From Desulfotomaculum sp. (lineage in GTDB: Bacteria > Bacillota > Desulfotomaculia > Desulfotomaculales > Desulfallaceae), in the NCBI GenBank assembly GCA_016841675.1, contig JAENYQ010000038.1:1-32792 (forward strand): a stretch of 32,792 bases of DNA. Direction: 5' to 3'. Within the stretch, counting starts at the first letter, position 1, and the number at the start of each line of letters is the position of its first letter. Shown here piece after piece: positions 5,728-26,667 of this stretch. A model generated the notes under the pieces. That model searched no databases. It was not told where the DNA came from and was given only the letters and a program-made list of their open reading frames with translations. Position numbers and translations under genes: made by a program.

Positions 5728-6528
5728 ATGGATTTAAAATTGTCCGGCAAGACTGCAGTAGTAACTGGTGGAGCTAGAGGTATCGGACGCTCTGTTTGTC
5801 AGGTTTTAGCAGCAGAAGGGGCTAATGTTGCTGTTTTTGATATCCTTGCTGATGCAGCGGAAGAAACCGCGCAGATGATTCGTGAGACAGGCAAAAAAGC
5901 CATAGCGTGTTCAGTAAATTTGGCCGATTACGCCAGCGTAAAAGCGGCCATGGATAAGGTAAAAGCTGAGTTGGGGCCGGTTGACATTGTATCATGCGTT
6001 GCCGCTATTACCGATAACATGGGTACAATTGAAAAGATGCCGGTTGAGAAGTGGACCAGAGAGATAAAAGTCAATTTATCAGGTTGCTTCTACTGTGTCA
6101 AAGAGACCATTGACTCAATGGTTGAGCGCAATTTTGGCCGGTACATTTTTGTTTCCTCAAGAGCAGGTATGGACGGCGGCTATGGGCAGTGCTCCTACTC
6201 ATCAAGCAAGATGGGTCTCATTGGTTTTGCAAGGTCGTTATCATTGGAGTATGCCCGGATGGGGGTAACCAGCAATATTGTCTTCCCCGGCCTGGTCAAT
6301 ACGCCTGCTACTGCGGGACTTAGTGATGAAGCTAGATCGCGCATTATCGCCCGTGGTGTGATGGGGCGGTTGCAGGATCCTGAAGAATTGGGCAATGCCA
6401 TTGCATTCCTGGCCAGCGAACAGGCGAAAGGCATCAATGGCGCGGAGCTTATGGTAAGCATGGGTCCGGCTCCCTACTCTTTCCGCCCGATGAATCTTCC
6501 AGGCGATGAGGCGGCTATGGGCATTTAA
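5728..6528 (+). CDS. Short-chain dehydrogenase, active subunit (BbsD-like)
   Basis: A 266-aa NAD(P)-dependent oxidoreductase with AGGAGG before its ATG. It has the Rossmann motif TGGARGIG (13-20), D38 after beta-2 (usually NAD preference), and the full catalytic set N116, S144, Y157 and K161 (CSYSSSK). The expected role is oxidation of a beta-hydroxyacyl-CoA to the beta-keto form; in bbs this is 2-[hydroxy(phenyl)methyl]succinyl-CoA dehydrogenase. It is about half identical by eye to the preceding inactive SDR, with a C-terminal extension of about 17 residues. Its position directly before the acyl-CoA dehydrogenase supports the same pathway. Confidence 0.88.
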   Translation: MDLKLSGKTAVVTGGARGIGRSVCQVLAAEGANVAVFDILADAAEETAQMIRETGKKAIACSVNLADYASVKAAMDKVKAELGPVDIVSCVAAITDNMGTIEKMPVEKWTREIKVNLSGCFYCVKETIDSMVERNFGRYIFVSSRAGMDGGYGQCSYSSSKMGLIGFARSLSLEYARMGVTSNIVFPGLVNTPATAGLSDEARSRIIARGVMGRLQDPEELGNAIAFLASEQAKGINGAELMVSMGPAPYSFRPMNLPGDEAAMGI

Positions 6529-7947: not shown

Positions 7948-8131
7948 AATTAGCATTGTTCATAAAGGTATTAATCATTTGACTAGAATATGTATAATAT
8001 GCTTAATTATCAGATTTGGTGAAATATAAAAAAACAGGTTTGGTTAATAAGCAACAGAACTATTAGCGCTTGCAAAAATCATTGTCTTTTGGATGATATG
8101 TTTCAGCAAAATTCTAACAGGAGGTATGTTA

Positions 8132-10034: not shown

Positions 10035-12122
10035 ATGAAAACTGGGTTAAATAACCTTCTAAGTCCAAAATCAGTAGTAGTTTTCGGTGTTTCTGAACAA
10101 GAGGGCAAGGCTGGTAACTCGGTCGTGAAGCAGCTCATGGACGGCAGTGTTCGGGTCTACGGGATTAATCCCAAAGGTGGAACATTGTACGAAAAAACTA
10201 TTTATCGCAATGTTGATGAGCTGCCGGATGTGCCGGACTTAGCTGTAATTGCTTTGCCGTCCGGGTTAGCGCCGGAGGCTACTCGCGCTTGTGTCAGGCG
10301 GGGTATAGGCGCGGTAATTGTGATCTCAGGTGGTTTCGGCGAAATCGGCGAAGCAGGGCGGAAACTGGAACAGGAGTTAAAAGAAGCAATTGTCGGTACA
10401 CGCACCCGTATCCTTGGTCCCAATACATTAGGATTGCTCATTCCACGGCTAAAACTGGATACTGTTTTTCTACCGTCAAGTCACCTTAGACGTCCAAATC
10501 CAGGAAATATAGCGATCATCTCTCAGAGCGGCTCGGGCGTTATGGGAGCACTGGATGTAGGATCATTCTACGGTGTTGGCCTCTCTGCTTTCGTTGGACT
10601 TGGCAACCGTATCGATGTCAACGAAAATGAGCTGATTGAGTATTTTGCGGAGGACCCCAACACGTCAGCGATAGGCGTATATCTGGAAAGCTTTGTAGAT
10701 GCTCAAAAATTTATTGAAGTCTGTCGGAAGGTAAGCCCACAAAAGCCGATAGTACTTGTAAAGGCCGGCCGTTCTTCAGCCGGTGCTAAAGCAGTTGCGT
10801 TGCACACCGGGTCGCTGGCAGGATCGGACCGGGTTACTGATGGTGTTCTCAGACAGTTGGGTGTTATAAGAGCTTATGACGACGAAGATCTCCTGGACAC
10901 AGCACGGGCCCTCGCTTACGCGCAACCACTCAATGGTCGTCGGGTAGCGATTTTGACCGGCGGCGGTGGAACAGGAGTCATGATTGCCGACTACGTTGAG
11001 GCAAAGGAAAAGGGCATCGCTGCTAACCTGGCGAAACTAGACCCGGAAATTGAGGCGAGATTGGCCAGGATGGCTCTTCCTTTCGCATCGGTTCATAATC
11101 CGATCGACCTGACCCCCTCTGCCAGTAATGATATGTATGCCGAGGCGATAGAGATTCTCCAGGACGACCCGGGGGTTGATGTTATAATCGCTTGCCTCAT
11201 GTACCACGCTGCGAAAAGAGACGAACAATTGACAGAGAAAATATGCCACTGGGGCAAGCACGGTAAAAAACCGCTAATCGTTGCGGCGATTGGTTCTGAG
11301 ACCACTATGCAGGCTAATCGGCAGATGGGAACCGCCGGAGTTCTTGCCTTTCCGTCCTTCTGGCGGACTGTAAAGGCCGTGGATGTTCTTGCCCAACGGG
11401 CAGAGTTCCTCCGCCAGGTGAATTCGCAAAAAGAGGACGTTCCGGCGCCAACCGGACTGGAGTCTTTGTTTGTGCCAAAACCTGGCGTACCTTTGGCCGA
11501 AGACGAGGTTAAAGCTATACTACGCAAGCGCGGTATAGCCACTCCAGAATCGATTGTGCTTTACAAGGGGCTGCTGCCGGCAGAGATCCCGTTACCGTTC
11601 CCCCTCGTGGTGAAAATAAGGTCTGCCGAAGTGCTCCACAAAACAGATTTAAAGGGAGTGGCGCTCAATATCACGGATATAGAAATTCTGGAACAGACTG
11701 TCGCGGAGATGAGTTCCCGTTTCCCGGGCGAAGACTTGCTTGTCGAGCATATGGAGCCTCCCGGGGTGGAGATCATTGTGGGACTTATTGAAGATGGCAC
11801 CTTCGGCTTGTCAATTATGTGCGGAGTTGGCGGCATTCTGGCTGAGCTCTACCAGGACGTGACCTTCCGGCGGGTGCCGATCAGCCGTCTTGATGCCAAT
11901 AACATGTTGCGCGAACTGAAGGCTCATGCTTTATTTGAAGGCTTCAGGGGAATCAAAGCCAATCGTGAGGCGGTAACCGATTTGCTTCTCAAAGTTTCTA
12001 GTCTCGGCCAGGACCTAAAGGGGCACATCGACCAGATGGACCTCAATCCGATCATCGTGCGTGAGGATAAGGCAGTAGTTGTTGATGCGAAGTTAATCTG
12101 GAAGACTGGAACCATGGAGTAG
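10035..12122 (+). CDS. ADP-forming acyl-CoA synthetase (acetate-CoA ligase family), alpha-beta fusion
   Basis: This family interconverts acyl-CoA + ADP + Pi with acid + CoA + ATP, and can either activate an acid or conserve energy from a CoA ester. The 695 aa match the fused architecture: CoA-binding Rossmann domain (about 1-130, ISGGFGEIGE), two succinyl-CoA-synthetase-like domains (about 145-460), and an ATP-grasp beta part (about 475-690, with VVKIRSAEVLHKTDLKGV and HMEPPGVEIIVG). H257 in ALHTGSLAGSD is the phosphohistidine of this family. AAGGAG lies a rather long 13 bases before ATG 10035. It might recover ATP from the acyl-CoA released by the thiolase, or activate the substrate. Confidence 0.9.
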   Translation: MKTGLNNLLSPKSVVVFGVSEQEGKAGNSVVKQLMDGSVRVYGINPKGGTLYEKTIYRNVDELPDVPDLAVIALPSGLAPEATRACVRRGIGAVIVISGGFGEIGEAGRKLEQELKEAIVGTRTRILGPNTLGLLIPRLKLDTVFLPSSHLRRPNPGNIAIISQSGSGVMGALDVGSFYGVGLSAFVGLGNRIDVNENELIEYFAEDPNTSAIGVYLESFVDAQKFIEVCRKVSPQKPIVLVKAGRSSAGAKAVALHTGSLAGSDRVTDGVLRQLGVIRAYDDEDLLDTARALAYAQPLNGRRVAILTGGGGTGVMIADYVEAKEKGIAANLAKLDPEIEARLARMALPFASVHNPIDLTPSASNDMYAEAIEILQDDPGVDVIIACLMYHAAKRDEQLTEKICHWGKHGKKPLIVAAIGSETTMQANRQMGTAGVLAFPSFWRTVKAVDVLAQRAEFLRQVNSQKEDVPAPTGLESLFVPKPGVPLAEDEVKAILRKRGIATPESIVLYKGLLPAEIPLPFPLVVKIRSAEVLHKTDLKGVALNITDIEILEQTVAEMSSRFPGEDLLVEHMEPPGVEIIVGLIEDGTFGLSIMCGVGGILAELYQDVTFRRVPISRLDANNMLRELKAHALFEGFRGIKANREAVTDLLLKVSSLGQDLKGHIDQMDLNPIIVREDKAVVVDAKLIWKTGTME

Positions 12123-12806: not shown

Positions 12807-14165
12807 ATGAGCACTATGAGCAATAGCGGCATAAACCAACGCGTAAGCATATCAAGCCGGTTGGAACGTCTTCCACACTCATCATACCTGATAACTTTGT
12901 GCTGGATATTATTAATGTCGATACTTGCTGCAACCTTTATCAACAACGGATTTCAATATCTGATGCCCGGTTTGAAGGAATATTTGAATATTGATCCTGC
13001 TGTTTTGGGATCTTTGGCGTCGCTAGCTTTTGCAGGTATGTTTTTTGGTGCCATGATCGGTGGGCACTTGGCAGATAGAATTGGCAGGAAGCCCGTCATT
13101 ATTGGTTCTATGATTATATGGGGAGTTGCCGGAGTCATGCTGACGTATGCAGATTCTGTGTTGCAAGTTCAAGTGAGTCGTTTCTTTATTGGTTTAGGCT
13201 TAGGGACACATTTACCGACGGCCGCGGTTTTGCTGAGTGAAATGGTTCCTTCACGTTTACGCGGCAAGTATCTCGTAGGTTATATAGCAACTATGGCATT
13301 TGGAATGTCATTGGTGGGATTTACGACTTATTTTTTATTGCCTAAGTGGGGCTGGCAGGGTGCGGGCATGTTAGATGCACTTTGTGCAGTATGGGCCATT
13401 ATTCTATGGAAGTTCATGCCGGAATCTGCCCTTTGGCTGGACGCTGCAGGCAGGCATTCAGAAGCCGACAAGATAATGGACAAAATCGAGAGCGCAATAC
13501 AAAAACGCACTGGACAGCCGTTGCCTCAACCGGTAGAGGTTAAGCCCGTCAGCATTTCTGCTGAAAAGGTGGAAGAGAGCAAATCACTTTGGACGAAAGC
13601 TTACATTGGTCTTGTGCTTATGATGACAGTCTACATGCTTTGCCAGATGATGGGTAATTATGGTATAAGCATGTGGTTGAGTAGCATGCTGGTTATGAAG
13701 GGCTTCACAATGATGAAGTCTGTGCTCTATGTAGCTTGGCTTTCTCTTGGCGGTGTGCCGGCTTTATTCCTACTGGGTTACCTGGTAGATAAGATTGGTA
13801 GGAAATGGACTGTTATATTAATGGCTATTATGACTGCTATATTTGCATTTATCTATGGCCAGGCAGCAACCTATACCATGGTAGTTATTACCGGTGCGGT
13901 TTATATGTTTATGCAGACCGGCTATAATATGTCCTCCATGGTATTTACAACAGAAGTGTGGCCAACGAGCGTGCGGGGTATGGGCAAAGGGTATTCCCAG
14001 GCGTGCGGCCGAGTAGGAGCCTTTTTTGGACCTTTGGTTGCAGGATATATAGTAGCTGCCGGGTTTGGCAGTAATGGAATAATAATTTTTGCAGTTGTCG
14101 TTAATATCACTGCCGCAATTGTTATATATTTATTTGCACCTGAAACAAAGGGTAAAGTTTTCTAA
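12807..14165 (+). CDS. MFS transporter, sugar/aromatic acid:H+ symporter type
   Basis: A 452-aa inner-membrane carrier with 12 predicted membrane helices in two halves and a charged central loop (about residues 205-265). The signature GGHLADRIGRKP stands between helices 2 and 3, its weaker counterpart GYLVDKIGRKW in the second half, with PSRLRGKY, PESALWL and the C-terminal FAPETKGKVF. These belong to the sugar porter / aromatic acid:H+ symporter branch. GAAGGGGG precedes ATG 12807. It probably imports an organic acid for the surrounding catabolic genes; the substrate cannot be read from sequence. The gene is framed by inverted repeats, and its last 27 bases also occur at 9924-9950. Confidence 0.88.
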   Translation: MSTMSNSGINQRVSISSRLERLPHSSYLITLCWILLMSILAATFINNGFQYLMPGLKEYLNIDPAVLGSLASLAFAGMFFGAMIGGHLADRIGRKPVIIGSMIIWGVAGVMLTYADSVLQVQVSRFFIGLGLGTHLPTAAVLLSEMVPSRLRGKYLVGYIATMAFGMSLVGFTTYFLLPKWGWQGAGMLDALCAVWAIILWKFMPESALWLDAAGRHSEADKIMDKIESAIQKRTGQPLPQPVEVKPVSISAEKVEESKSLWTKAYIGLVLMMTVYMLCQMMGNYGISMWLSSMLVMKGFTMMKSVLYVAWLSLGGVPALFLLGYLVDKIGRKWTVILMAIMTAIFAFIYGQAATYTMVVITGAVYMFMQTGYNMSSMVFTTEVWPTSVRGMGKGYSQACGRVGAFFGPLVAGYIVAAGFGSNGIIIFAVVVNITAAIVIYLFAPETKGKVF

Positions 14166-14187
14166 GCACTAAAAATTAGTATTTAAT

Positions 14188-14255: not shown

Positions 14256-14435
14256 AGCATTTGTGAATTCAGAAATGCCGTTAAAGGAATTGTAATTCCT
14301 ATAATATGAAAACTGGCGTGGCAGTTTCCGGCATTCGATTTGGGCCGGGAGAGCGTTTCTTAATAAAGTATGAGTATATGACATGATGTTGCAGACTAAG
14401 GCATGTTCATTTAAAAGATAATGGAGGAATTAGCA

Positions 14436-15818
14436 TTGAGTACTCATATTGAAAAAATGTCAGACAACGTATTGAGCACAAAGTTTGAAAATTTTAATCA
14501 AGAAAAATTAGAAAATTCCAAATATCGTATTATTGATGTACTAGGGTGTGTAATTAGTGGTGCAAATGCTCCCGGCAATTTAGCTTTAATTGATTTGGTT
14601 AAGGCCTGGGGAGGCAGGGAAGAAGCAACAATTTTTGTTCATGGCGGCAAGGCGCCGGCCCATAATGTTGCTATGATAAATAGTGTTATGGCTAGATCCT
14701 ACGATTTTGAAGCAACACAGGCGCGTGTTAATGGTGTCAATCTTCCATCTCATATTAGTGGGACTACAGTAATGACTGCCCTGACCTTAGGGGAAGTCAA
14801 AGACATCAGTGGTAAAGAATTAATTTCTGCACTATTGGTTGGAGATGACTTTGCCTGCAGGGTACTAGCTGCTTCCGGTTTTGGATTTGATTTGGGATGG
14901 GATAATGTTGGAACAGTTAACGCATTGGGAGCTACAGCTATTGCTGGACGGTTGTTGGGGTTATCCAAAAAACAACTTCAAAATGCCTTTGGCATTGTTT
15001 TAAATCAATTGGCTGGCAGTTTTGATACAATATGGGAAGGAACTCCCATCTTTAAACTCACTCAAGGTTTGTCAGCCAGGAATGGTATATTTTCAGCGGA
15101 ATTAGCTAAAGCAGGGTGGACCGGACCCAAGGATGCTTTGCTCGGCAAATTCGGTTATTTTAAACTTTATACTGAAGGGTGCACTAATCCTGATATTTTA
15201 ATAGAGGATCTAGGTAAAAAGTACCATACTGAGGTTACGTATAAACCATATCCAGGGTGCCGCGCTAATCATACTGCTGTGGGTTGTGCCCTTAATTTCG
15301 TTAAAAAATATGATGTAGAAAGTGATGAAATTGACCAAATAATTCTCAAGGTTCCTGCGGCGGTCCGCGATATGTTTGTTGGGCCACCTTTTATAATCCG
15401 GGAGGTTCCTCAAATAGATGCGGCTTTTAACCTTCGCTTTTGTGTTGCAAATGTATTATTAAGAAAAGATATAATTTTAGAGCATTTTCAAGAGAATTTG
15501 ATAAGGGACCCCCGTATTATTAATATTGCCAATAAAATCACGATTGAAGAATTGACTAGTGCTGATAAACAAGCAAGAGGTGCTTTTTTAAAAGTAAAAC
15601 TGAAGGATGGCACAGAATATACTTCGGAAGCAAGCTTTGCAAAGGCTGACCCGGTTTTAGATCCTCTTTCTAACGAGGAAGTAAAACAGAAGTTCATAAA
15701 CAATGTAGCTTTTTCCCAAACAATATCTGAAGTGAATGCTGAAAGGATCCTTAACTTAGTTGAGAATCTTGAGGAAGTTGAGAAAATCAGTGATTTAATA
15801 AAGCTAATGACAACCTAA
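14436..15818 (+). CDS. MmgE/PrpD family protein
   Basis: A 460-aa protein. The preferred start is TTG 14436, eight bases after GGAGG; the in-frame ATG 14421 overlaps that site. The family includes 2-methylcitrate dehydratase, cis-aconitate decarboxylase and epimerases or isomerases of small polycarboxylic acids, all acting next to a carboxylate. Recognisable blocks are the N-terminal helical domain with RIIDVLGCVISG, the central FKLTQGLSARNGIFSAELAKAGWTGP (usually K-LH-G-AA-NG, here with LTQG in place of the His-Ala-Gly form), and KPYPGCRANHTAVGCAL, typical of the second domain. The substrate is probably a di- or tricarboxylic acid. It stands 250 bases ahead of the first mutase, so it may prepare or process the mutase's acid. 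No further function is claimed. Confidence 0.82.
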   Translation: MSTHIEKMSDNVLSTKFENFNQEKLENSKYRIIDVLGCVISGANAPGNLALIDLVKAWGGREEATIFVHGGKAPAHNVAMINSVMARSYDFEATQARVNGVNLPSHISGTTVMTALTLGEVKDISGKELISALLVGDDFACRVLAASGFGFDLGWDNVGTVNALGATAIAGRLLGLSKKQLQNAFGIVLNQLAGSFDTIWEGTPIFKLTQGLSARNGIFSAELAKAGWTGPKDALLGKFGYFKLYTEGCTNPDILIEDLGKKYHTEVTYKPYPGCRANHTAVGCALNFVKKYDVESDEIDQIILKVPAAVRDMFVGPPFIIREVPQIDAAFNLRFCVANVLLRKDIILEHFQENLIRDPRIINIANKITIEELTSADKQARGAFLKVKLKDGTEYTSEASFAKADPVLDPLSNEEVKQKFINNVAFSQTISEVNAERILNLVENLEEVEKISDLIKLMTT

Positions 15819-16068: not shown

Positions 16069-16509
16069 ATGAACGAGAAGGTACATTCATTGAAAACTCT
16101 GGTGACAGGTGTTATAGGTGAGGACGTCCACGTTATTGGGATTAGGATCTTAGAATACGCCTTGCGAGAGGCGGGATTCAAGATTGTCTCTTTAGGCGCC
16201 CAGGTGTCTCAGGAAGAGTTCATAGAAGCGGCGTTAGAGACTAAGGCTGATGCCATCTTCGTATCTTCCCTCGGCGGACATGCGAGGATCTCGGTGCCGG
16301 GGCTCAGGGAGAAGTGTGTGGAGGCTGGGCTGAAGGACATCCTGCTCTATCTGGGCGGACAGCTGACTATCGGCGATGTGAAATGGGAGGAGTCTGAAAA
16401 GGCATTCAAGGATATAGGTTTTGATCGGGTTTATCCTCCCGATATAGAGCTTGCAACCGTTATTAGGGATCTTGAAGCAGATTGCCGACGAGAAGGGGTG
16501 AGATCATGA
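16069..16509 (+). CDS. Glutamate-mutase-like B12-binding subunit (S component), copy 1
   Basis: The 146-aa small subunit carries adenosylcobalamin for the E subunit coded next. The base-off/His-on motif DxHxxG is present as D19-V-H21-V-I-G24, followed by LGAQVSQEEF, FVSSLGGHA and LYLGGQL, the other corrin-contact loops of the flavodoxin-like fold. The length fits GlmS/MutS of Clostridium (about 137 aa). Its TGA overlaps the ATG of the E subunit, so the two are translationally coupled. The E partner lacks glutamate-specific residues, so a glutamate-specific name is not used. This pair and the reactivase at 18258 are richer in G+C and use AGG arginine codons more than the second pair. Confidence 0.88.
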   Translation: MNEKVHSLKTLVTGVIGEDVHVIGIRILEYALREAGFKIVSLGAQVSQEEFIEAALETKADAIFVSSLGGHARISVPGLREKCVEAGLKDILLYLGGQLTIGDVKWEESEKAFKDIGFDRVYPPDIELATVIRDLEADCRREGVRS

Positions 16510-17942
16510 TGGTGAAGAACAGGAAGCTGAACGATGACGAGTTTTTCAAGGAAAGAAAGGCGATCCTTGCCACGTGGCCAACGGGATCAGAGGTTGATCT
16601 GGAGGAAGCGTTGACTTTTCACAACTCCCTCCCAGCCAAAAAAAATTTCGCCCTTCGGCTCGTCGAAGCACGCGAAAAAGGGGAGACTCTGATTCGCTGC
16701 GAATCGGGAATACCTACTGTGGAGGAATTCAGCAACTACCTGAGGTTTCTGCAGGATGAAGGTCATGCAGACCTTTTGGGTGCCCATGTGGACAGCATGA
16801 CCCGGAATCAACGGTATGCGGAGACGGAGCGCGGTTTGGAGGAGAGCCTGAAGACGGGGCGATGGGTCCTCAACGGGTTCCCCATGGTTGCTCACGGCGT
16901 CCGGGGGACGAGGAAGTTGATAGATGCCGTTGACCTCCCCTTGATGATCAGGAATCCTTGCGTAGATCAGAGGCTGGTCGCTGAGATTGGATTTGCCAGT
17001 GGATTTACTGGTGCTTCCGGATGCCCCATCCTAGCGTTTTCGCAATACTCCAGGAATATACCCCACGAAGTTGTGATCAGTTACTACCAGTATGTATACA
17101 GGCTTATGGGCTACTATGGCGAAAGAGATGTACCCATGGTTGCATCCATCATTGGGGGATTTGCTATCTTGTGTCCTTTAAGCGTCCTCATTGCAGGTGC
17201 GATCATTGACTCACTCATTGCTGCGGAGCAAGGGGTCAAACACATCAATCTGGTCAATAATGCTCAGGGTAATTTGGTGCAAGATGCGGCTGGCATAATT
17301 GTCCTTCGCAAAACTGTTAAACGGTATCTGGAGGCTCAGGGCTACAAAGATATAGAAGTGACAATGAATTTGAGCAATTGGTCCGGCCAGTTTCCGGCGG
17401 ATACATTCGATGCCTGTGCCATCATTAGTGTAGGTGTTACCGCAGCCGTAGCGGGCAAGAGCGAACTCTGCACGGTTAAGACAATAGAAGAGGCAAAATC
17501 GATCCCCACGCGGGAGGCAAGCGCTAATAGTCTGCGACTTGGCAAGACATTAATCAAGCAATTGAAGAGCCAGAACTTTCAGCTTGAGGACAAGCTCCTT
17601 GAAGCAGAGGCTGCAATGTTGGAAAAGGAGACAGAGCTCATCGTAGACAAGATTCTGGAGCTGGGTGATGGCGATGCCGTAGTGGGGGAAATCAAGGCCA
17701 CACAAACCGGCGTTTTTGATGTTCCCTTTTCAACGAGCCAATATGTCCAGAGCAGGGTGAAAGGAGTCCGGGATCTTCAGGGTGCAGTAAGATATATAGA
17801 CCACGGGAACCTCCCGTTTACCAGTGAGATCATCGACTTCCACAAGGAGAAGATCGCGGAGAGAGAAAAAGCTATAGGGAAGAAACTTGACTATCAGACA
17901 ATTGTGAAAGATATATCTTCCATATCAAGAGGAGAACTATAG
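16506..17942 (+). CDS. Glutamate-mutase-like catalytic subunit (E component) with altered substrate site, copy 1
   Basis: A 478-aa TIM-barrel subunit of an AdoCbl-dependent carbon-skeleton mutase. With ATG 16506 (overlapping the S-subunit stop) it aligns without gaps, over residues 1-181, to my recollection of C. cochlearium GlmE. R100 (MTRNQRY) and R149 (LPLMIRN), two of the three carboxylate-binding arginines, are kept, as are Y181 and the K and E of VKTIEEA that hold the adenosyl ribose. Changed are R66 to E66, amino-group-binding E171 to S171, and Y177 to A177. The enzyme should therefore still do radical rearrangement of a dicarboxylate, but probably not on glutamate. No methylaspartase is encoded nearby. 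The substrate is unknown. Confidence 0.87.
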   Translation: MMVKNRKLNDDEFFKERKAILATWPTGSEVDLEEALTFHNSLPAKKNFALRLVEAREKGETLIRCESGIPTVEEFSNYLRFLQDEGHADLLGAHVDSMTRNQRYAETERGLEESLKTGRWVLNGFPMVAHGVRGTRKLIDAVDLPLMIRNPCVDQRLVAEIGFASGFTGASGCPILAFSQYSRNIPHEVVISYYQYVYRLMGYYGERDVPMVASIIGGFAILCPLSVLIAGAIIDSLIAAEQGVKHINLVNNAQGNLVQDAAGIIVLRKTVKRYLEAQGYKDIEVTMNLSNWSGQFPADTFDACAIISVGVTAAVAGKSELCTVKTIEEAKSIPTREASANSLRLGKTLIKQLKSQNFQLEDKLLEAEAAMLEKETELIVDKILELGDGDAVVGEIKATQTGVFDVPFSTSQYVQSRVKGVRDLQGAVRYIDHGNLPFTSEIIDFHKEKIAEREKAIGKKLDYQTIVKDISSISRGEL

Positions 17943-18257
17943 AATAACCAATTTTCGTTAGGCACCGCAGCCGACATGCTGGCCAATTCAAAGGCGGATC
18001 TCCATACTTAGGGACCTGGTAAAAAACACTCTAACCTGTTTAATACTTGGGTTTATGGATTGTCAGGGGCAAAAGAAATGAGTTTATCTTAACCCCTGAC
18101 AACCCATATGTTAGGGCGGGGTTTGGGGACATCGCTCATGGGGACATCGGTTTTGGGCAGTGAGATTTACCAAATATGCAAATTGTTATGATAACTAATT
18201 ATGAGAGCAGAATAAGGTCAAACTTGCCTGAGTAGCGTCATACAAGGGGGGATGTAA
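17943..18257. other. Spacer with hairpin and GGGGACATCG direct repeats
   Basis: A 15-base stem with one mismatch (18055-18069 paired with 18093-18107, core TTGTCAGGGG/CCCCTGACAA) could end transcription of the first mutase pair, though no U tract follows. GGGGACATCG occurs twice in tandem (18125-18134 and 18140-18149) and resembles the ends of the repeat at 572-602. GGTCAAACTTGCC at 18216-18228 resembles the palindromes at 30773 and 30840 but is imperfect. There is no gene here. Confidence 0.5.
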
Positions 18258-19679
18258 GTGCCTAATATTGTTATCTTTGTTGATTTCGGCAGTACATACA
18301 CTAAGGCCGTGGCTTTCGATATTGATGAAGAGAGGATTATCGGACAGGGACTTTCTGAAAGCACGGTGTCAAGCGATATTGCCATTGGTCTAAAGTCGGC
18401 GCTTCAGCAATTGGAATCGAATGCTCAGCAAAAGTGCACCAAAGAGGCCACCATGCGATTGGCTTGTAGTAGCGCCGCAGGGGGTCTGCGTTTGGCCGTC
18501 GTGGGTTTGGTCCCTAACCTTTCGCTAAAGGCAGGGAGGATGGCAGCACTGGGGGCTGGTGCAAAACTGGTGGAAAACTATTCCTTTAAGCTTAATCACT
18601 CTGAGATAGTCCAAATGGAGCAGGCATCACCGGATATCATACTTCTGGTGGGCGGTACCGACGGGGGAAATGAAGAAGTTATCATTCATAATGCAAAAAT
18701 GATAGCCGGATCGAACACAAGAGCTTCCGTAGTGGTTGCAGGGAACAAGGTTTGCGCCGATGACGTCACCAACATACTTGAATCAGCCAATAAATATGTC
18801 AAAGTTGTGGATAACGTCCTGGTAAGTTTGGATGAATTGAATGTAGAGCCGAGTCGTGCTGCGATCAGGGAAGTATTCATGAACCGGATTGTCCATGCAA
18901 AAGGTTTGGATAAGGCGGGAGAACTTGTGGACGGTGTGATCATGCCGACACCGATGGCTGTCTTGAGGGCCGCAGAAGTTCTTGCGATGGGTTCCGGTAG
19001 GGAAGATGGACTGGGTGAATCGGTTATTGTTGATGTGGGTGGGGCGACCACAGACATCCATTCTATTGCGCATGGACATCAAAAGGATTTTGGAATTCTC
19101 ATGAAAGGCATAGCTGAGCCCTTCGCGAAAAGAACTGTGGAGGGGGATCTCGGCCTTCGATACAATGCACTGTCAATTGTGGAGGCGGCCGGTGAGGTGC
19201 GGATACTGAGAAACGGGGTGCGGCCGGAATCTTTGACCGAATTGCGGGATAAGGCAAAATATCTGTCGGAACACGTTGAAACATTGCCAACCAGCCAGAT
19301 AGATTTCCGGTTGGATAACTGGTTGGCGAGAATAGCTTCGGAAATCGCCATGGAAAGACATGCAGGTCGCCTGGAGCAGATTTATACGACCCAGGGCCCG
19401 ATATATAAGCAGACCGGCAAGGACCTCAGAGAGGTGAGAAACATTATCGGCACCGGAGGGATCTTTGCTCATAGCTCGGAACCGGCGAAAATTCTTGAGG
19501 GGGCGCTCTTTTCAAATGAAGATCCCTTGTCACTCAGACCCCAGTCCCCTGAGTTTTTTGTTGATAGACGTTACATTCTTTATGCAATAGGACTACTGGC
19601 CGAGAGTGCTCCTGAGAAGGCTGTAAGGATAGGGAAGAGGTATCTCGAACGTGTATCGCGGGAAACTGGAAGTGATTGA
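18258..19679 (+). CDS. glmL: GlmL/MutL-type mutase reactivase ATPase
   Basis: A 473-aa ASKHA-fold ATPase of the GlmL (MutL) family, found with glutamate-mutase genes and thought to exchange damaged cobalamin in the mutase. GTG 18258 follows AAGGGGGG. Phosphate-1 motif VDFGSTYTKAVAFD (about 8-21), phosphate-2 motif VDVGGATTDIHSI (about 257-269) and the adenosine motif IGTGGIFAHS (about 395-405) are all visible. It lies between the two S/E pairs and is the only reactivase, so it may serve both. Its base composition resembles the first pair, which suggests that glmS1-E1-L came as one block. It is unrelated to DNA mismatch-repair MutL. Confidence 0.9.
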   Translation: MPNIVIFVDFGSTYTKAVAFDIDEERIIGQGLSESTVSSDIAIGLKSALQQLESNAQQKCTKEATMRLACSSAAGGLRLAVVGLVPNLSLKAGRMAALGAGAKLVENYSFKLNHSEIVQMEQASPDIILLVGGTDGGNEEVIIHNAKMIAGSNTRASVVVAGNKVCADDVTNILESANKYVKVVDNVLVSLDELNVEPSRAAIREVFMNRIVHAKGLDKAGELVDGVIMPTPMAVLRAAEVLAMGSGREDGLGESVIVDVGGATTDIHSIAHGHQKDFGILMKGIAEPFAKRTVEGDLGLRYNALSIVEAAGEVRILRNGVRPESLTELRDKAKYLSEHVETLPTSQIDFRLDNWLARIASEIAMERHAGRLEQIYTTQGPIYKQTGKDLREVRNIIGTGGIFAHSSEPAKILEGALFSNEDPLSLRPQSPEFFVDRRYILYAIGLLAESAPEKAVRIGKRYLERVSRETGSD

Positions 19680-19827
19680 AATCAATTAAGTCAAATGAAG
19701 ATCATGGGTATGAATGCACTCTCCACTTCTAAAAGCGTTCTCCAAGGGAGAGGGGTGCAAAATATACACGATTTAGCGAAATAATAATGGTTTTGTCAGT
19801 CAATTTTTTAATAATAGGAGGATAAGG

Positions 19828-20271
19828 ATGGGTGTTGACAATAAATTAATGGGAACTGTAGTGACAGGAGTAATTGGTGAGGATGTCCACGTTGTAGGCA
19901 TAAAGATTATTGAGCGAGCATTAAATGATGCCGGCTTTAAGGTAAATTCAATAGGAGCGCAAGTCTCACAAGAGGAATTTATCGATGCCGTTGTGGAAAC
20001 AAATGCAGATGCCATTTTTATTTCTTCTTTTAGTGGGCATGCCGCAATTTTGGTTCGCTCATTTAGAGACAAGTGTGCCGAGGCCGGTTTAGGTGATATT
20101 CTTCTGTATATTGGCGGCTCCTTGCTTCTTAAAGAAGAACTTTGGGAAGAGGTCGAAAAGAAATTTAAAGGACTAGGTATGGACAGAGTGTATCCGCCTG
20201 GTATTTCACCAACCAGAGTATTAGAAGATCTTGAAACGGATATTTCGCTTCGAAGGAGGGTAAGCAAATGA
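19828..20271 (+). CDS. Glutamate-mutase-like B12-binding subunit (S component), copy 2
   Basis: A 147-aa paralogue of the protein at 16069, with AGGAGG before ATG 19828. The cobalamin motif D19-V-H21-V-V-G24 and the loops IGAQVSQEEF, FISSFSGHA and LYIGGSL are intact. It is roughly 60% identical to copy 1 by eye but written with more AT-rich codons, so it is not a recent duplication. Its TGA overlaps the ATG of the following E subunit by four bases (ATGA), the same coupling as in copy 1. Confidence 0.88.
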   Translation: MGVDNKLMGTVVTGVIGEDVHVVGIKIIERALNDAGFKVNSIGAQVSQEEFIDAVVETNADAIFISSFSGHAAILVRSFRDKCAEAGLGDILLYIGGSLLLKEELWEEVEKKFKGLGMDRVYPPGISPTRVLEDLETDISLRRRVSK

Positions 20272-21710
20272 TTAGAAATAAAAAACTAAGCGAGGACGAG
20301 TTTTTTAAACAAAGAGAGGAAGTATTGGAACAATGGCCTACAGGTAAGGAAATCGTTGATCTTGATGAAGCCATTGAGTACCATAAAAGCTTGCCGCCCC
20401 TTAAAAACGCTGTCAATAAATTAAAATACGCGAAAGAACATAATGAAATATATGCTGTCTGCGGCGCGGGGAAAGCAACTATGGAAGAACATATAGAGCT
20501 GTATCAATATACCGAAAAAGAAGGTCAGGCTGATCTACTGGGACTTTCTCCCGACAGTATGACCAGACAGAATAACTATGAAGGGGCTCGGCGTGCCCTG
20601 GATGAAAGCATAAAAACAGGTGAATCAAAGCTTAACGGTTTGCCTGTAGTAAATCATGGTGTTGCTGCCATTAGGAAAATGGTTGAATCCGTTAATGTTC
20701 CCGTTCTACCACGCTATGGAGCTGCTGATGCCAGGCTCTGTGATGATACCCTTCTTGCCGGAGGATGTAGTTATTCAGCGCCCGATATTTTCATGGATTT
20801 CTGGAATCAGCACGCCAAAGTTTCTTTGGAAAAAGCCATTAGTACCCATCAATATGTTTGTAGGTTAATGGGTTATTATACAGAGCATGGTGTGCCGATT
20901 TGTGCTGCGGCACAGGGTCTATATCCCGCGGCTATTCCACCATCTTTGCAAACTGCCAACCTTATCCTTTCTGTTATGCTACAGGTGGAACAAGGTGTTA
21001 AATATATTTCTGTAAAATGTCCGGCTCATGGTAATTTGGTCCAGGATGTTGCTTCTGCAGAAGTTCGCTGCAATCTCCTTCAATTGTACCTTAAGAAACT
21101 TGGCCATCATGATGTAGAGTTATTTCCTAATTCAAGTTTTAGTTTGATGCAATATCCGGTGGAGGTAGGGGCAAATTTTGCCGTGGTATTTATGAATACA
21201 CTTGTGGGCAAATTGATCGGGGCACAAATAAACGACATCAGGACTGTGGCAGAAGCCAAAGCTATCCCCACTAAAGAGGATATGGCGTATACTTTTCGGA
21301 CTGCCAAAGTAATACAAAACTTCCTGCAAACGCAAAAAATCAATATTGATAGGAAAGAAATCGACATGGAAGCTCAGATGGAAGAGCAAGAAGTCCGTTC
21401 TATCCTGGATAAGATATTGGAGCTTGGTGACGGTGATCCATTAGCAGGAGCAGCTAAAGCTGTCGTAAGTGGGATTCTTGACAACCCCTTTGCGGCTAAT
21501 CGTGCTGCCGCGGGTAAAGTCCTGGGCATTAAAGATTGTGAAGGCGCAATCAGATATTATGATACTGGTAATTTGCCCTTTCCAAAAGAAATTGTGGAGT
21601 ATCATAAAGGGAAAATAATAGAAAGAGAAATAAAACGAGGTAAAAAGATTGACTATGAAACACTGATTAGTGACCTTTTGTCAATCAGTAAAGGCTATTT
21701 AGTTCAATAA
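20268..21710 (+). CDS. Glutamate-mutase-like catalytic subunit (E component) with altered substrate site, copy 2
   Basis: A 480-aa AdoCbl mutase catalytic subunit. The N terminus (EEVLEQWPTGKE) is very close to GlmE. From residue 31 numbering stays in register with GlmE through 181: R100 (MTRQNNY) and R149 (VPVLPRYG) are kept, but R66 becomes G66, E171 becomes A171, Y177 becomes D177 and Y181 becomes Q181. The ribose-binding lysine is Arg (IRTVAEA) and its glutamate is kept. The substrate pocket differs both from GlmE and from copy 1 (E66, S171, A177, Y181), so the two enzymes probably act on different non-amino dicarboxylic acids or on successive steps. The end of the gene (LLSISKGYLVQ) is intact. 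Reference residues are from memory. Confidence 0.87.
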   Translation: MIRNKKLSEDEFFKQREEVLEQWPTGKEIVDLDEAIEYHKSLPPLKNAVNKLKYAKEHNEIYAVCGAGKATMEEHIELYQYTEKEGQADLLGLSPDSMTRQNNYEGARRALDESIKTGESKLNGLPVVNHGVAAIRKMVESVNVPVLPRYGAADARLCDDTLLAGGCSYSAPDIFMDFWNQHAKVSLEKAISTHQYVCRLMGYYTEHGVPICAAAQGLYPAAIPPSLQTANLILSVMLQVEQGVKYISVKCPAHGNLVQDVASAEVRCNLLQLYLKKLGHHDVELFPNSSFSLMQYPVEVGANFAVVFMNTLVGKLIGAQINDIRTVAEAKAIPTKEDMAYTFRTAKVIQNFLQTQKINIDRKEIDMEAQMEEQEVRSILDKILELGDGDPLAGAAKAVVSGILDNPFAANRAAAGKVLGIKDCEGAIRYYDTGNLPFPKEIVEYHKGKIIEREIKRGKKIDYETLISDLLSISKGYLVQ

Positions 21711-21871
21711 CTAGGCTGAATACCATCTCGTTAAGGTTCTATATTGACATAACCCCAATCGCAATAAGGGTTTATGCCATTCCAAGTATCTTTCAAGACT
21801 ACGTTTTTTAGAGTGCGAAACTTAAGTTAGAAATAAAATAAAGAAGTATACTTAATGGGAGGGATGATGTT

Positions 21872-22957
21872 GTGCAACGATATCATTGGTTTTGGGTTAT
21901 CTGGGTCCCACTGTTGCTCATAGGGCTGATGCTTAGCGGATGCCAATCAAACTCTACACCAAGTGCGTCCACAAACAAGGCACAGGAAACGGTGCCTGAA
22001 GAGTTCCCATCGACGATTGGGCTCGGAACGTTTCCTACTGGCGGTTCGAGTTACATGGTCGCAACAGGGGTGGCCAAGGTGCTTAGCGATCGTTCGCCAA
22101 TTAAGGTGATAGTAAAGCCTAGTGCCGGGCCGGTTGCTTTTAACCCCTTATTGGAATCAGGGGAACTTGGGTTAGGCATCGAATCTGGAAATGACATCGC
22201 ATGGTCTTACAACTCAGGGCCCGGCTACGAAAAACCGTACAAAAACATGCGGGTACTGGTTAGCGGCCATGGAAATCCTACAGTTACTCTATCAGTGCGC
22301 TTGGATTCCGGTATTAGTTCAATCAAGGAATTAAAAGGGAAGAGGGTGGCGGGTGGTTATGGGGGTTTCGTAGTGGGTAAGCAGTGTGTAACAGCTACCC
22401 TGGAATCCGTTGGCCTCACCTGGAATGACGTGAAAGAAATACCTGTAGCCGATCCCTCATCAGCCGTACGCGCCTTGCAGGAAAGACGTGTCGACGCAGC
22501 TTTCGGTGGCCAGCCAATAGGTTCTCTCAACCTTGAGATCGACTCGGCAACACCTTTGCACGCGCTGAATTTTGGAGATTTACCCGCCGAGCAGGCTGAT
22601 AACCCGCCCATTGAACTGGTCGAGGTGTTGCGGAAGTATGTGCCCGGCGCAAGCATATATCGCCAGCATAAAGAGGGCTTCCTTAAGTCGGATAGCACAG
22701 CGATCAATTTTGTTTCTTGGCTTGCGGCTTCATCTAAGCTTAGTGCCGACGCCGCATACGAGATTACCAAGAGCGTTTACGAAAACGACAAGGAACTTCA
22801 GCCACTGCACGACTTATTAAAGGAATGGCGGCAGGAAACCATGTTTGATTCCGAACAACCTGCGCCGTACCACGAGGGAGCTGTACGCTTCTGGAAGGAA
22901 AAAGGGTTGTGGACCCCAGAGGCAGAGGAGAACCAAAAAAGGCTTCTGGGGCAGTAG
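21872..22957 (+). CDS. TAXI-family TRAP transporter solute-binding lipoprotein
   Basis: A 361-aa extracytoplasmic binding protein starting at GTG 21872, eight bases after GGAGGG. The signal peptide ends in the lipobox LSGC, with C24 as the lipidated residue. The mature part begins with TIGLGTFPTGGSSYMVATGVAKVL, typical of TAXI proteins, and has the later ELKGKRVAGG and DAAFGGQPIGS segments of the two-lobed fold. TAXI proteins pair with fused DctQM permeases; the only one here is at 24646, now separated by a TetR gene and a decayed copy of this gene. The ligand is unknown, probably an organic acid. Confidence 0.9.
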   Translation: MQRYHWFWVIWVPLLLIGLMLSGCQSNSTPSASTNKAQETVPEEFPSTIGLGTFPTGGSSYMVATGVAKVLSDRSPIKVIVKPSAGPVAFNPLLESGELGLGIESGNDIAWSYNSGPGYEKPYKNMRVLVSGHGNPTVTLSVRLDSGISSIKELKGKRVAGGYGGFVVGKQCVTATLESVGLTWNDVKEIPVADPSSAVRALQERRVDAAFGGQPIGSLNLEIDSATPLHALNFGDLPAEQADNPPIELVEVLRKYVPGASIYRQHKEGFLKSDSTAINFVSWLAASSKLSADAAYEITKSVYENDKELQPLHDLLKEWRQETMFDSEQPAPYHEGAVRFWKEKGLWTPEAEENQKRLLGQ

Positions 22958-23267: not shown

Positions 23268-23834
23268 TTGATCGATCGTAAAGAAGAAATCATGAAAATA
23301 GCTATTGTACTTTTTAGTGAAAATGGATATGATAACACTTCAACACGAGAACTTGCAAAAGCTGCTGAACTTAGTATTGCCGGGATATATTATTTTTTTC
23401 AAAACAAAGAAGAGATCCTTTTCAGTATTCTTAACTCATTATTAAATAAGCTTTTGAAGTCTATGCGTTCTGCAATAAATAGAGATGATACACCACAAAC
23501 TAATATTACACGGATTATCGATCATGGGTTAAAAGAGGTAATAGAAAATAAAATGGAAATTGGTTTATTATTAAAAGAAACTCAACGACTAAGCCCAGAT
23601 CAGTTGGTAATAATTAGAAATAAAGAAAAAGATGTATTTAATTTAATAAAAAATGAGATTTCTAGACTAAATGGTGAAGGTCGCCTTAAAAATTTGAATT
23701 TGACAGCCACAACTTTCTCATTATTAGCTATAATTAGTTTTTCTCATAACTGGTATGACCCAAAGGGTCAACTATCGACAAAAGAATTTGTAGCAGAGAC
23801 CACCGAGCTTTTTTTAAATGGTGCTCTTAAATAA
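23268..23834 (+). CDS. TetR/AcrR family transcriptional regulator (copy 2)
   Basis: A 188-aa regulator from TTG 23268 behind GGAGGG. The helix-turn-helix segment (NTSTRELAKAAELSIAGIYYFFQNKEEILF) is almost the same as in the TetR at 1307, which suggests overlapping DNA specificity. Differences are concentrated in the ligand domain (residues about 55-75, LLNKLLKSMRSAINRDD, compared with LTSLLEYVQLAINKDN). Two paralogues with the same DNA-reading head and different ligand pockets could let two inducers control the operators O1-O3. It sits inside the split TAXI transporter region, between the intact and the decayed binding-protein gene. Confidence 0.85.
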   Translation: MIDRKEEIMKIAIVLFSENGYDNTSTRELAKAAELSIAGIYYFFQNKEEILFSILNSLLNKLLKSMRSAINRDDTPQTNITRIIDHGLKEVIENKMEIGLLLKETQRLSPDQLVIIRNKEKDVFNLIKNEISRLNGEGRLKNLNLTATTFSLLAIISFSHNWYDPKGQLSTKEFVAETTELFLNGALK

Positions 23835-24645: not shown

Positions 24646-26667
24646 ATGTGCGCGACTAAGAATGCGGTGCCGAAAGACCAGGAACAAAAAAAGAAACAGG
24701 TGAATGTCGAAAGTGCGAGTTTCCGAGAGCTTCCTGGTCTGCTAGGCTTATTGCAGCGCAGCCTACTCTGCTTAGTTCCTATTTTGGGTATTCTGTTTAT
24801 TATGGGCATCCACACTTATTGGGGTTGGGGGTTGTACACAGAACAATACGTTGGCCTGTTTATAACGCTCGTTTTTGTAACTATGTTCTTTTCCAAACCA
24901 GCCAGCAATAAAGCTCCACATGATTACTTGCCCTGGTATGACGCTCTGCTTGCTATATTGGCGCTACCGATAGGTCTTTACCTCACGTGGTTCTATCCCC
25001 AGATCGCTTTTTGTCTGGGTGATATTTCATTAGAACGAACTATATTGGGGGTACTAACGATTCTGCTTATCCTAGAAGGGGTTCGCCGTTTTGCTGGATG
25101 GGTGTTTGTGATTGTGATTGGCGCTTTCATACTCTACGGTCGTTATGCTGACCTGTTTCCGGGATCATTACAAGGTATTGGTACCACATGGGAGAGGCTC
25201 ATCACTTACCTTTATATAGACCCTAATAGTATTCTTGGTCAAATGACCTTAGCTGCCGGTATTGCATTGGCGTTTATCTTATTTGGCAATGTTTTGACTG
25301 TTTTCGGGGGAGCCAATCATCTTGCTAATTTGTCTATAGCAATCCTCGGCCATTTACGGGGTGGTTCGGCTAAGGCAGCGGTAGGGATGTCGAGCCTCAT
25401 TGGCTCAGTCACTGGTGGCTGCACTACCAACGCCATGATAACCGGGACGATTACCATCCCGCTAATGACCAAAGCTGGTTACAAACCTGAATATGCTGGA
25501 GCAGTGGAGGCTGTATCTTCCTCGGGTGGTGGAATAATGCCGCCAGTTATGGGCATTGTAGCTTTCATGATAGCTGAGAACCTAGGCATGCCTTATGCGG
25601 ATGTGGCACTTGCCGCCCTTATACCTGCGTTATTGTTTTATGTGGCGTTATTTGTACAGGTAGACTTGGAAGCAGGAAAAAGGGGGTTTTTGTGCATTCC
25701 TAAAGCCGAGATATCAAAATCGCGAGCAGCCCTGCGTGATGGGTGGGTTATTATTCCCTGCCTGGCTATTCTTATTTATACCTTAATGATAATCCGTATT
25801 AATCCCAACGTTGCCGGCGTTATCTCAGGCTTTGCTTCGGTACCGATCCTTATGATGACCAAGGACGGGCGTGGCAATTTCATAAAACGTGCCGTAGCTA
25901 CCCTCGAAGGGACTGGCAAAATGCTAATGACAATCACTGCCCTGATCGCTGGTGCCGGCATAATCATTGGGATAGCCTCTGCTAGCGGCCTTGGTTTTAA
26001 TATAGCCTATGCCCTCACTATTATTAGTAATGACAACTTATTTTTCCTTCTTGTTATTGCGGCTGTAGCGTCGGTAGTTCTAGGAATGGGTATGCCTCCG
26101 GTGCCAGCCTACGCTCTAGTGGGCACACTCATCGCGCCAGCGATGATAGAACTCGGCGTTCTCCCGATAGCCGCTCACCTGTTCATTTTCTATTTTGCCA
26201 CAGTCGCCAATTGGACACCTCCGGTCGCCCTCGCTTGTTTTGCCACCTCAGCACTTACTGGCGCCAACCCCAACCAAATTGGCTTAATCTCTATGCGCCT
26301 TGGTATACTAGCTTATGTAATACCCTTTTTATTCGTGTACTCACCGGCACTAATTCTAAACGACGCCAGTTTGACGATTATTCTTTTATCAGTGGTAACT
26401 GCAGTTATTGGCACCATCACTTTAGGCATCGGGTTGGTCGGTTATCTTTTCCATGTTGTGCCATTGTTTCGCCGGGTTTTGTACTGCATCGCCAGCGTTG
26501 CACTTCTCATTCCATTTAACCATGACATAAAGATAGGCACGATAGTGAATGGGACCGGGTTCCTTGTAGTAGTGATCCTACTTTTGTGGGAGATATGGTA
26601 CCGTCGCTCTGTAACAGGGTCTCTTCATAAGGGCATATCGTTCGTTAATAGAGACTATAGCGCGTAA
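24646..26667 (+). CDS. TRAP transporter fused permease (DctQM, TAXI type)
   Basis: A 673-aa inner-membrane protein starting at ATG 24646 after AAAGAGGTGG. The first about 200 residues hold the DctQ-like helices (LLCLVPILGILFIMGIHTYWGWGLY onward); the rest is the DctM part with about 12 helices. GSVTGGCTTNAMITGTITIPLMTKAGY and SSSGGGIMPPVMGIVAFMIAE form the conserved substrate/sodium region, with the repeat-related GMGMPPVPAYALVGTLIAPAM in the second half. Together with the TAXI lipoprotein at 21872 it should form a Na+- or H+-driven importer of an organic acid. The cotranscribed partner position is occupied by a pseudogene, so the distant intact binding protein probably serves it. Confidence 0.92.
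   Translation: MCATKNAVPKDQEQKKKQVNVESASFRELPGLLGLLQRSLLCLVPILGILFIMGIHTYWGWGLYTEQYVGLFITLVFVTMFFSKPASNKAPHDYLPWYDALLAILALPIGLYLTWFYPQIAFCLGDISLERTILGVLTILLILEGVRRFAGWVFVIVIGAFILYGRYADLFPGSLQGIGTTWERLITYLYIDPNSILGQMTLAAGIALAFILFGNVLTVFGGANHLANLSIAILGHLRGGSAKAAVGMSSLIGSVTGGCTTNAMITGTITIPLMTKAGYKPEYAGAVEAVSSSGGGIMPPVMGIVAFMIAENLGMPYADVALAALIPALLFYVALFVQVDLEAGKRGFLCIPKAEISKSRAALRDGWVIIPCLAILIYTLMIIRINPNVAGVISGFASVPILMMTKDGRGNFIKRAVATLEGTGKMLMTITALIAGAGIIIGIASASGLGFNIAYALTIISNDNLFFLLVIAAVASVVLGMGMPPVPAYALVGTLIAPAMIELGVLPIAAHLFIFYFATVANWTPPVALACFATSALTGANPNQIGLISMRLGILAYVIPFLFVYSPALILNDASLTIILLSVVTAVIGTITLGIGLVGYLFHVVPLFRRVLYCIASVALLIPFNHDIKIGTIVNGTGFLVVVILLLWEIWYRRSVTGSLHKGISFVNRDYSA

Follow-up and report, generated by a model that had tools for sequence, protein, structure and literature searches.

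What would a bacterium do with two glutamate mutase-like enzymes encoded side by side, with no methylaspartase, the usual next enzyme, among the annotated genes around them? This question is raised by the window analysed here, a stretch of 32,792 nucleotides from an anaerobic Desulfotomaculum sp. (contig JAENYQ010000038.1, C85 in our numbering), in which two B12-dependent mutases are encoded between positions 16,069 and 21,710. Each consists of a catalytic subunit related to GlmE (E1 and E2) and a small B12-binding subunit related to GlmS (S1 and S2), with a single GlmL/MutL reactivase gene between the two pairs. To our knowledge glutamate mutase, a textbook B12 radical enzyme, is known for one substrate. 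The first-pass annotation, made from the sequence of the window, claimed that both copies have lost the glutamate-specific residues, and our comparisons bear this out. Because the pocket changes are shared throughout their clades, these clades are separate from that of glutamate mutase, and methylaspartase is absent from all 21 non-canonical loci compared, true glutamate mutase was rejected as an identification, and the conclusion that E1 and E2 are not glutamate mutases is strongly supported. A non-amino substrate for the two enzymes is plausible.

The substrate pocket was examined by aligning both proteins to solved GlmE. According to PMC9545868, GlmE grips the glycyl part of its ligand by R66, R149 and E171 and the acrylate part by R100 and Y177, and the backbone of G68 and N123 contacts the adenosine. 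The window E1 has E66, R100, R149, S171, A177 and Y181, and a new arginine at position 64; E2 has G66, R100, R149 and A171, together with D173 and R326. Thus, the predicted replacement of R66 (by E in copy 1 and G in copy 2) and of E171 (by S and A), with retention of R100 and R149, agrees with the alignment. The further claim that Y177 and Y181 differ holds for E1 in the form proposed (A and Y); for E2, the proposed D and Q are obtained with MAFFT but become F and H in the phmmer alignment, which contains a one-residue gap. Between positions 171 and 181 the alignment of E2 is ambiguous by one residue, and E171 is absent in either version.

These changes are clade-wide. We aligned 100 E proteins, among them 70 canonical, 4 of the E1 type and 8 of the E2 type. 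The canonical class was defined by positions 66, 149, 150 and 171, E1 by position 66, and E2 by positions 66 and 326; counts at these positions are therefore built in, and the loss of E171 from E1 and E2 is independent of the grouping. E171 is missing from 4/4 E1-type and 8/8 E2-type proteins, its place being taken by S, A or P, and R66 is replaced in 12/12, position 66 being part of both class definitions; both residues are present in 70/70 canonical rows, a class defined by them. The E1 type carries E/D66, R100, R149, S171, A/S177 and Y181, the E2 type G66, R100, R149, A/S/P171, D/N177 and Q/H/M181. At position 326, E1 has K and all eight E2 have R, and R100, R149, G68, N123 and E330 are retained in all 12 proteins (positions 326 and 330 are counted here with the cofactor side). 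To judge from these residues, the pocket is rebuilt rather than merely stripped, because E1 gains R64 and an acid at position 66 (each in 4/4) and E2 gains D173 (8/8). None of R64, E/D66, D173 and D/N177 is found at the corresponding positions of the 70 canonical rows, and in the model of E1 these two sites, 64 and 66, are separated by two positions, on and directly following a single strand. These gains weaken the inference from loss of E171 to an amino-free substrate: E/D66 and R64 of E1, and D173 and D/N177 of E2, might each bind an amine or a carboxylate whose position differs from that in L-glutamate.

The cofactor side of both enzymes looks intact, with B12 motif, adenosine-pocket residues and reactivase present. 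The D-x-H-x-x-G motif is conserved in S1 and S2, followed by a second motif SSL in S1 and SSF in S2; each S gene overlaps its E gene by a few bases, and the reactivase passes the cut-off of its family model (Table 1), as the first-pass annotation had maintained. Structural comparison with GlmE, proposed there as a check, gave full-length matches to structure 1cb7: the AlphaFold2 model of E1 (predicted local distance difference test 93.2) has a template modelling (TM) score of 0.97 and that of E2 (89.7) a TM score of 0.95, both with a root-mean-square deviation of 1.8. The TIM barrel, the D-x-H-x-x-G subunit, the adenosine-pocket residues and the GlmL-type reactivase mark both enzymes as probable mutases of the GlmE superfamily. 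With TIGR01503 (cut-off 390.1) E1 scores 431.8 bits and E2, just below, 385.3 bits; the NCBI equivalog model would thus call copy 1 a methylaspartate mutase, probably wrongly. With PF06368 the two window copies reach 432 and 373 bits, as against 731–791 bits for canonical GlmE from this order (ten proteins).

In a tree of 48 E proteins (canonical members thinned to 18 of the 70; 479 of the 504 columns, pocket columns included), E1 and E2 of the window both fall outside the canonical clade (support 100/98). The E1 type (100/97) and the E2 type (100/100) form sister clades (100/99), at 38–41% identity to glutamate mutase. Since the two copies stand in different sister clades, they probably differ in function, as had been suspected. 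The window genome encodes four PF06368 proteins, none of them canonical, namely E1, E2, a second E1 on contig C90 (67% identical to the window E1) and a W-type protein on contig C130. Apart from this genome, the E1 type was found in two metagenome-assembled genomes (MAGs) of Deltaproteobacteria belonging to one order, G443 (bin73) and G444 (Zod_Metabat.1361). An E1-profile search of 398 genomes from the phylum to which the window belongs gave no further match above 519 bits, the genome's own E1 proteins scoring 950–960; of the matches in other genomes we read the top 29, which comprise 28 canonical proteins and one E2 (in G377). Likewise, among 85 genomes of G443's order, E1 and E2 types occur in G443 and G444 only, and L- and W-type proteins in two other genomes. 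Further carriers of E2 are a Bacillota MAG (locus L027), a Spirochaetes MAG (L049) and G377. The gene order is S-E1-MutL-E2-MmgE in G443 and E1-S-E2 in G444. In the tree, the window E2 is closer to those of L027 and G377 than to the E1-adjacent E2 of G443; therefore, the E1-E2 pair is not always inherited together. Non-canonical members come from records titled Bacillota, Deltaproteobacteria, Spirochaetes, Dehalococcoidia, Actinomycetes and Betaproteobacteria.

Several of these relatives deserve a separate description. The W type is a third GlmE clade, which retains R66, R100 and R149 and has P171 and W177; its loci include L005 (12277–16205 on contig C130), L018, L071, L088, L092, L094, L095 and L101. 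MmgE is nearby in 5/9 W-type loci, and HyuA-like and TRAP (tripartite ATP-independent periplasmic) transporter genes stand beside some. A glycyl radical enzyme is encoded in L071, L088 and L092, accompanied in L071 and L088 by a radical SAM protein, and L095 and L101 have unscanned open reading frames (ORFs) of similar size in that place. The E frames of L088, L095, L096 and L101 are about 645–670 residues long, leaving room for an E-S fusion. We rejected the identification of the glycyl radical enzyme of L092 as a benzylsuccinate synthase: its nearest relatives are hydroxyproline and glycerol dehydratases, whereas TutD, a true synthase, comes only thirtieth among 31 matches. The entry 8iof, which is named benzylsuccinate synthase, ranks sixth, but it reaches only 296 bits with the BssA of the window genome, as compared to 1478 bits for TutD. 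The betaproteobacterial GlmE-like proteins of L067 and L097 (L or Y at 66, T171, N326) form a distinct long-branched clade. The protein of L044 has E171 yet lies outside the canonical clade; MmgE/PrpD and acyl-CoA dehydrogenase genes adjoin it, and its 11.9 kb carry no methylaspartase. As for E2, loci L153 (contig C25 of G377) and L023, from two phyla, both encode a flavoprotein resembling fumarate reductase, at 71% identity to each other, and a DUF169-like protein, for which the scan covered L023; L153 further encodes two URO-D family proteins near E2. Zinc alcohol dehydrogenases adjoin S-E2 in L025 and L049 (scanned), and one of similar appearance (by reading) adjoins MutL-MmgE in L184 of G377.

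The neighbourhoods were compared for those 80 of 286 relatives that most resemble E1 (59 canonical and 21 non-canonical loci of 3.5 to 21 kb, some of the latter on contigs as short as 4.2 kb; lineage uncorrected). Methylaspartase was accepted at a phmmer E-value of up to 1e-30, the seed being the gene that follows glmE in Clostridium tetanomorphum, taken by its position to be methylaspartase. It is present in 56/59 canonical and 0/21 non-canonical loci (Fisher p 2e-16). The opposite is seen with MmgE/PrpD, found in none of the 59 canonical and in 7 of the 21 non-canonical loci (Fisher p 4e-5). In a second sample of 41 other loci (flanks of ~1.5 kb, E up to 1e-8), methylaspartase accompanies 36/38 canonical genes, three genomes being counted twice, and 0/3 non-canonical ones. 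The claimed absence of methylaspartase from the window was confirmed among its annotated genes, and a search of the whole genome (99.98% complete) with the C-terminal domain PF07476 returned one match of 24 bits, below the cut-off of 27. The phylogeny called for by the first-pass annotation yielded separate, supported clades for the E171-lacking E1 and E2 types.

The window genome has four MmgE genes, three of them on contigs with a GlmE-type mutase (C85, the window; C90; C130) and one on C159. The window MmgE directly precedes S1-E1, and that of C90 lies ~17 kb from E1. Both Pfam domains of the window protein pass their cut-offs, the model for 2-methylcitrate dehydratase fails (TIGR02330, 34.7 bits vs 458), and the nearest solved proteins are IRG1 (86 bits), IDS-epimerase (70) and PrpD (22). 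In a tree of MmgE proteins, in which no characterised MmgE/PrpD member was included, one clade (100/100) unites those of the window, C159, C90 and G443 (the copy adjoining E2) with two of G377, and all of these come from genomes carrying E1 or E2. The W-linked and GE-linked MmgE belong to another clade of ten rows (100/100), three of which were not counted as linked. A single clade for mutase-linked MmgE was not upheld: there are two main groups, with the protein of L044 outside both and unlinked copies inside both. In the C159 locus (L183), three genes resembling those of a molybdenum hydroxylase, of which the large subunit was scanned, are bordered by TRAP genes on one side and by an AMP ligase with MmgE on the other; this MmgE is 77% identical to that of the window, and an acyl-CoA dehydrogenase is 72% like the window's.

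The remaining genes of the window are collected in Table 1. From the enoyl-CoA hydratase through the TAXI/TRAP genes they share one strand, and apart from the S/E overlaps the gaps from MmgE to TAXI are 148–315 bases. Two mutually similar TetR-type regulators flank the set. The window matches no Rfam family at the gathering threshold, hence no cobalamin riboswitch. Scans of positions 12000–24700 gave 36 promoters (25.6, standard deviation 5.9, in shuffles) and 9 terminators (12.3, standard deviation 4.4), and were not used as evidence.

Table 1. Genes of the window discussed in the text, with positions and supporting matches.
Feature	Position	Strand	Remarks
TetR-family regulator 1	1307..1879	+	72% identical to regulator 2
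Enoyl-CoA hydratase, BbsH-like position in bbs-like set	2352..3158	+	PF00378 225.7 bits; 69% homologue on contig C90
OB-fold/zinc-ribbon protein, BbsA-like	3195..3611	+	PF01796 and PF12172
Thiolase, BbsB-like	3605..4762	+	top solved match BbsB 7pxp, 257 bits
Short-chain dehydrogenase/reductase 1 (SDR1), H/M replacing Tyr/Lys of YxxxK	4787..5536	+	best solved match 166 bits
SDR2, YxxxK intact	5728..6528	+	
Acyl-CoA dehydrogenase	6697..7872	+	PF00441 and others; nearest solved are acyl-/butyryl-CoA dehydrogenases
AMP-forming acyl-CoA ligase	8093..9787	+	PF00501
NDP-forming acyl-CoA synthetase	10035..12122	+	PF13607 and PF13549
MFS transporter, aromatic-acid symporter-like	12807..14165	+	PF07690; TIGR00895 217.8 bits, under cut-off 418.55
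MmgE/PrpD family protein, proposed stand-in for methylaspartase	14421..15818	+	PF03972 142.9 bits
S1, GlmS-like B12-binding subunit (DVHVIG, SSL)	16069..16509	+	NF002612 180.7 bits
E1, GlmE-like catalytic subunit copy 1	16506..17942 (ATG 16506 or 16509)	+	
GlmL/MutL reactivase	18258..19679	+	NF040745 591.4 bits, cut-off 475
S2, GlmS-like B12-binding subunit (DVHVVG, SSF)	19828..20271	+	NF002612 175.5 bits
E2, GlmE-like catalytic subunit copy 2	20268..21710	+	
TAXI TRAP solute-binding protein	21872..22957	+	TIGR02122 143.5 bits; 61% homologue on C90
TetR-family regulator 2	23268..23834	+	named from 72% identity to regulator 1
Fused TRAP permease	24646..26667	+	TIGR02123 521 bits; 62% homologue on C90

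Upstream of the mutases, an OB protein, a thiolase, two SDRs, an acyl-CoA dehydrogenase and an enoyl-CoA hydratase together form a gene set resembling the bbs genes of benzylsuccinate beta-oxidation. The best solved match of the thiolase is BbsB, a benzoylsuccinyl-CoA thiolase, the next reaching 199 bits, and its best NCBIfam model is that of a general thiolase (332 bits, cut-off 420). Among the solved matches of SDR1, BbsD (7pcs) comes fourth, with 134 bits as against 166 for the best, and 7p98, which we presume to be BbsG, ranks 14 for the acyl-CoA dehydrogenase. The CoA-transferase BbsEF is missing from the window, which has the AMP-forming ligase and the NDP-forming synthetase in its place. 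On contig C90, an enoyl-CoA hydratase-OB-thiolase-SDR set again adjoins MutL-S-E1, with identities of 62–70% to the window copies (48% for MutL). A separate set on contig C141, namely OB, thiolase, two SDRs, two ORFs of 412 residues, acyl-CoA dehydrogenase and enoyl-CoA hydratase, matches the order bbsABCDEFGH; its two unscanned 412-residue ORFs read like CoA-transferases, and YxxxK is present in both of its SDRs, unlike the window SDR1. The same genome encodes a benzylsuccinate synthase with 1478 bits to TutD (next match 510), a second copy 87% identical and a third relative at 62% (L190, L191 and L201). Since two BssA-like genes are close and a third stands at 62%, the organism is likely to carry out toluene-type fumarate addition. 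Contig C8 (L202) holds a 72–96% identical copy of the window block from the thiolase through the two SDRs, acyl-CoA dehydrogenase and ligase to the NDP-forming synthetase (3605–12122), which is either a duplication or a co-assembled strain.

The reading towards which we lean, a little beyond even balance, is that E1/S1 and E2/S2 are adenosylcobalamin (AdoCbl)-dependent carbon-skeleton mutases with respecified pockets, acting not on L-glutamate but on a predicted diacid, and serving together with an MmgE/PrpD step and the bbs-like set. It builds on the fold of the predicted models, the motifs, the clades and the neighbourhoods, from which we infer activity, substrate class and order of steps. 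One shared GlmL reactivase would keep both mutases active. The radical chemistry would be retained through the B12 site, the adenosine pocket and R100/R149 for the carboxylate, and a rebuilding would have affected the upper pocket half, where GlmE holds the amine and carboxylate of the glycyl part. The likely substrate would be an organic diacid in which a hydroxyl or a carbon branch replaces the alpha-amino group. Family knowledge and gene proximity suggest that this diacid, held by R100 and R149, would undergo the radical rearrangement, and that MmgE/PrpD would then act on the hydroxylated or unsaturated partner acid by hydration or dehydration instead of ammonia loss. Following CoA activation of the product, the upstream bbs-like enzymes could, as gene content suggests, carry out a beta-oxidation cleavage to acyl-CoA and succinyl-CoA.

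A more specific version, by analogy, would be a B12 route into benzylsuccinate-type beta-oxidation, in which a 3-substituted glutarate is turned into an R-methylsuccinate by migration of a (hydroxy)carboxymethyl group, with MmgE/PrpD providing or consuming the acid by (de)hydration and the bbs-like enzymes splitting it to acyl-CoA and succinyl-CoA. R-methylsuccinate is the skeleton made by fumarate-adding glycyl radical enzymes and the one on which bbs enzymes act; the window set could perform such steps on another, ligase-activated R-methylsuccinate. Both enzyme types add radicals to alkenes, GlmE a glycyl radical to acrylate and BssA a benzyl radical to fumarate, and on this route the two additions would converge on one pathway. 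We regard this route as speculative and decidedly doubtful.

A number of observations weigh against the favoured reading. The new acids E/D66 and D173 could bind an amine. The genome-wide search for methylaspartase used the C-terminal domain only, and the E1/E2 carriers G443 and G444 have short matches to this domain of 27 and 29 bits, at or just above the cut-off, as have 2/14 control genomes. MmgE/PrpD is near only 7/21 non-canonical loci, and the contrast is confounded by lineage, most canonical loci being clostridial by their record titles. The E1-E2 locus of G444 is without MmgE, though 17 MmgE genes occur elsewhere in that genome; none of the six tested in the tree joins the E1/E2-linked clade, and 3/6 members of that clade are not near a mutase E gene. 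As for the bbs-like set, the BbsB model ranks only fourth for the window thiolase, with 277 bits against a cut-off of 750, a cut-off also missed by the C141 thiolase inside its full bbs-type operon (398 bits). Its linkage to E1 was observed in one genome, that of the window itself, where the window and C90 loci may stem from one duplication. We looked for the bbs-like set beside E1 in bin73 and did not find it; there, E1 is ~265 and ~290 kb away from the two closest thiolase relatives, which have other surroundings. Given the organism's own benzylsuccinate synthases, the set may serve another fumarate adduct.

Alternatively, the mutases could act on an amino acid other than L-glutamate, for instance a D- or beta-amino diacid, with the amine on E/D66 in E1 or on D173/D177 in E2 and the E1 carboxylate on R64. 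The constancy of these residues within their clades, their absence from the canonical rows and the closeness of 64 and 66 in the model would fit such a substrate; on the other hand, none of the 21 non-canonical loci has methylaspartase, and no aminotransferase or ammonia-lyase family was found among the scanned neighbours (many neighbours being unscanned), save for an FMN oxidoreductase whose NAD domain weakly matched alanine dehydrogenase. We consider this unlikely, though worth keeping in mind. A different possibility leaves the mutases functional and respecified but makes the bbs-like genes unrelated to them, serving instead the X-succinate of a benzylsuccinate synthase paralogue. The BssA-like enzymes of the genome and the distance between E1 and the nearest thiolase relatives in bin73 are consistent with it. 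Yet the organism already has the bbsABCDEFGH-order operon on C141, and the bbs-like set with S, E1 and MutL occurs twice in the genome, most genes being 62–70% identical, and has therefore been kept together; this too appears to us a rather unlikely explanation.

The single S gene that serves E1 and E2 in loci L023 and L024, and the R326 that replaces K326 in 8/8 E2, raise the question of whether only one of the two subunits is catalytic, or whether both form a mixed complex on one S subunit. The argument from a single S is qualified by the further S beside a second E2 that each of these genomes carries (L025 and L026). Moreover, each E of the window is paired with an S gene of its own, and E2 occurs without E1 in G377. 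Among the best 80 relatives, none from the genomes of L027 and L049 was an E1 (the genomes were not searched whole), and R100, R149, G68, N123 and E330 are retained in both copies. Such an arrangement is thus improbable. Least credible of all are ordinary glutamate mutases with a drifted pocket. The TIGR01503 score of E1 above the cut-off, and of E2 close to it, would be expected of them, but the large deficit in PF06368 score, the loss of E171 from all 12 proteins, and a methylaspartase neither nearby nor above the cut-off in the genome make this very improbable.

The two enzymes, read as respecified AdoCbl mutases, resemble GlmES (EC 5.4.99.1; PDB 1cb7/1ccw/1i9c/6h9e) in full-length fold, S motif, GlmL, R100, R149, G68 and N123, and differ from it in the replacement of R66, E171 and Y177, in lacking a methylaspartase neighbour and in their separate clades. 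2-Methyleneglutarate mutase and other AdoCbl carbon-skeleton mutases have a different protein architecture; they are likened here by chemistry, the migration of a carbon group in a non-amino diacid, and not by sequence. The likeness to the Bbs pathway (BbsABCDEFGH) lies in the OB protein and thiolase, in the two SDRs and in the acyl-CoA dehydrogenase and enoyl-CoA hydratase; the CoA ligases in place of BbsEF, a thiolase far below the BbsB cut-off, SDR1 without YxxxK and the separate operon on C141 set the window apart. With 2-methylcitrate dehydratase, cis-aconitate decarboxylase and IDS-epimerase, the window MmgE/PrpD has its domains in common, and only 22–86 bits to solved members. A literature search, to which most subscription journals were closed, found no publication on a non-canonical GlmE variant and none pairing MmgE with methylaspartate mutase.

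Taken as a family, glutamate mutase thus includes several deep clades whose pockets are altered and whose neighbourhoods lack methylaspartase. Because the equivalog label on copy 1 is probably wrong, glutamate fermentation or B12 use claimed from genomes can be misleading. If the link to the bbs-like genes is true, it would point to a new way for anaerobes of hydrocarbon-type habitats to handle branched diacids.

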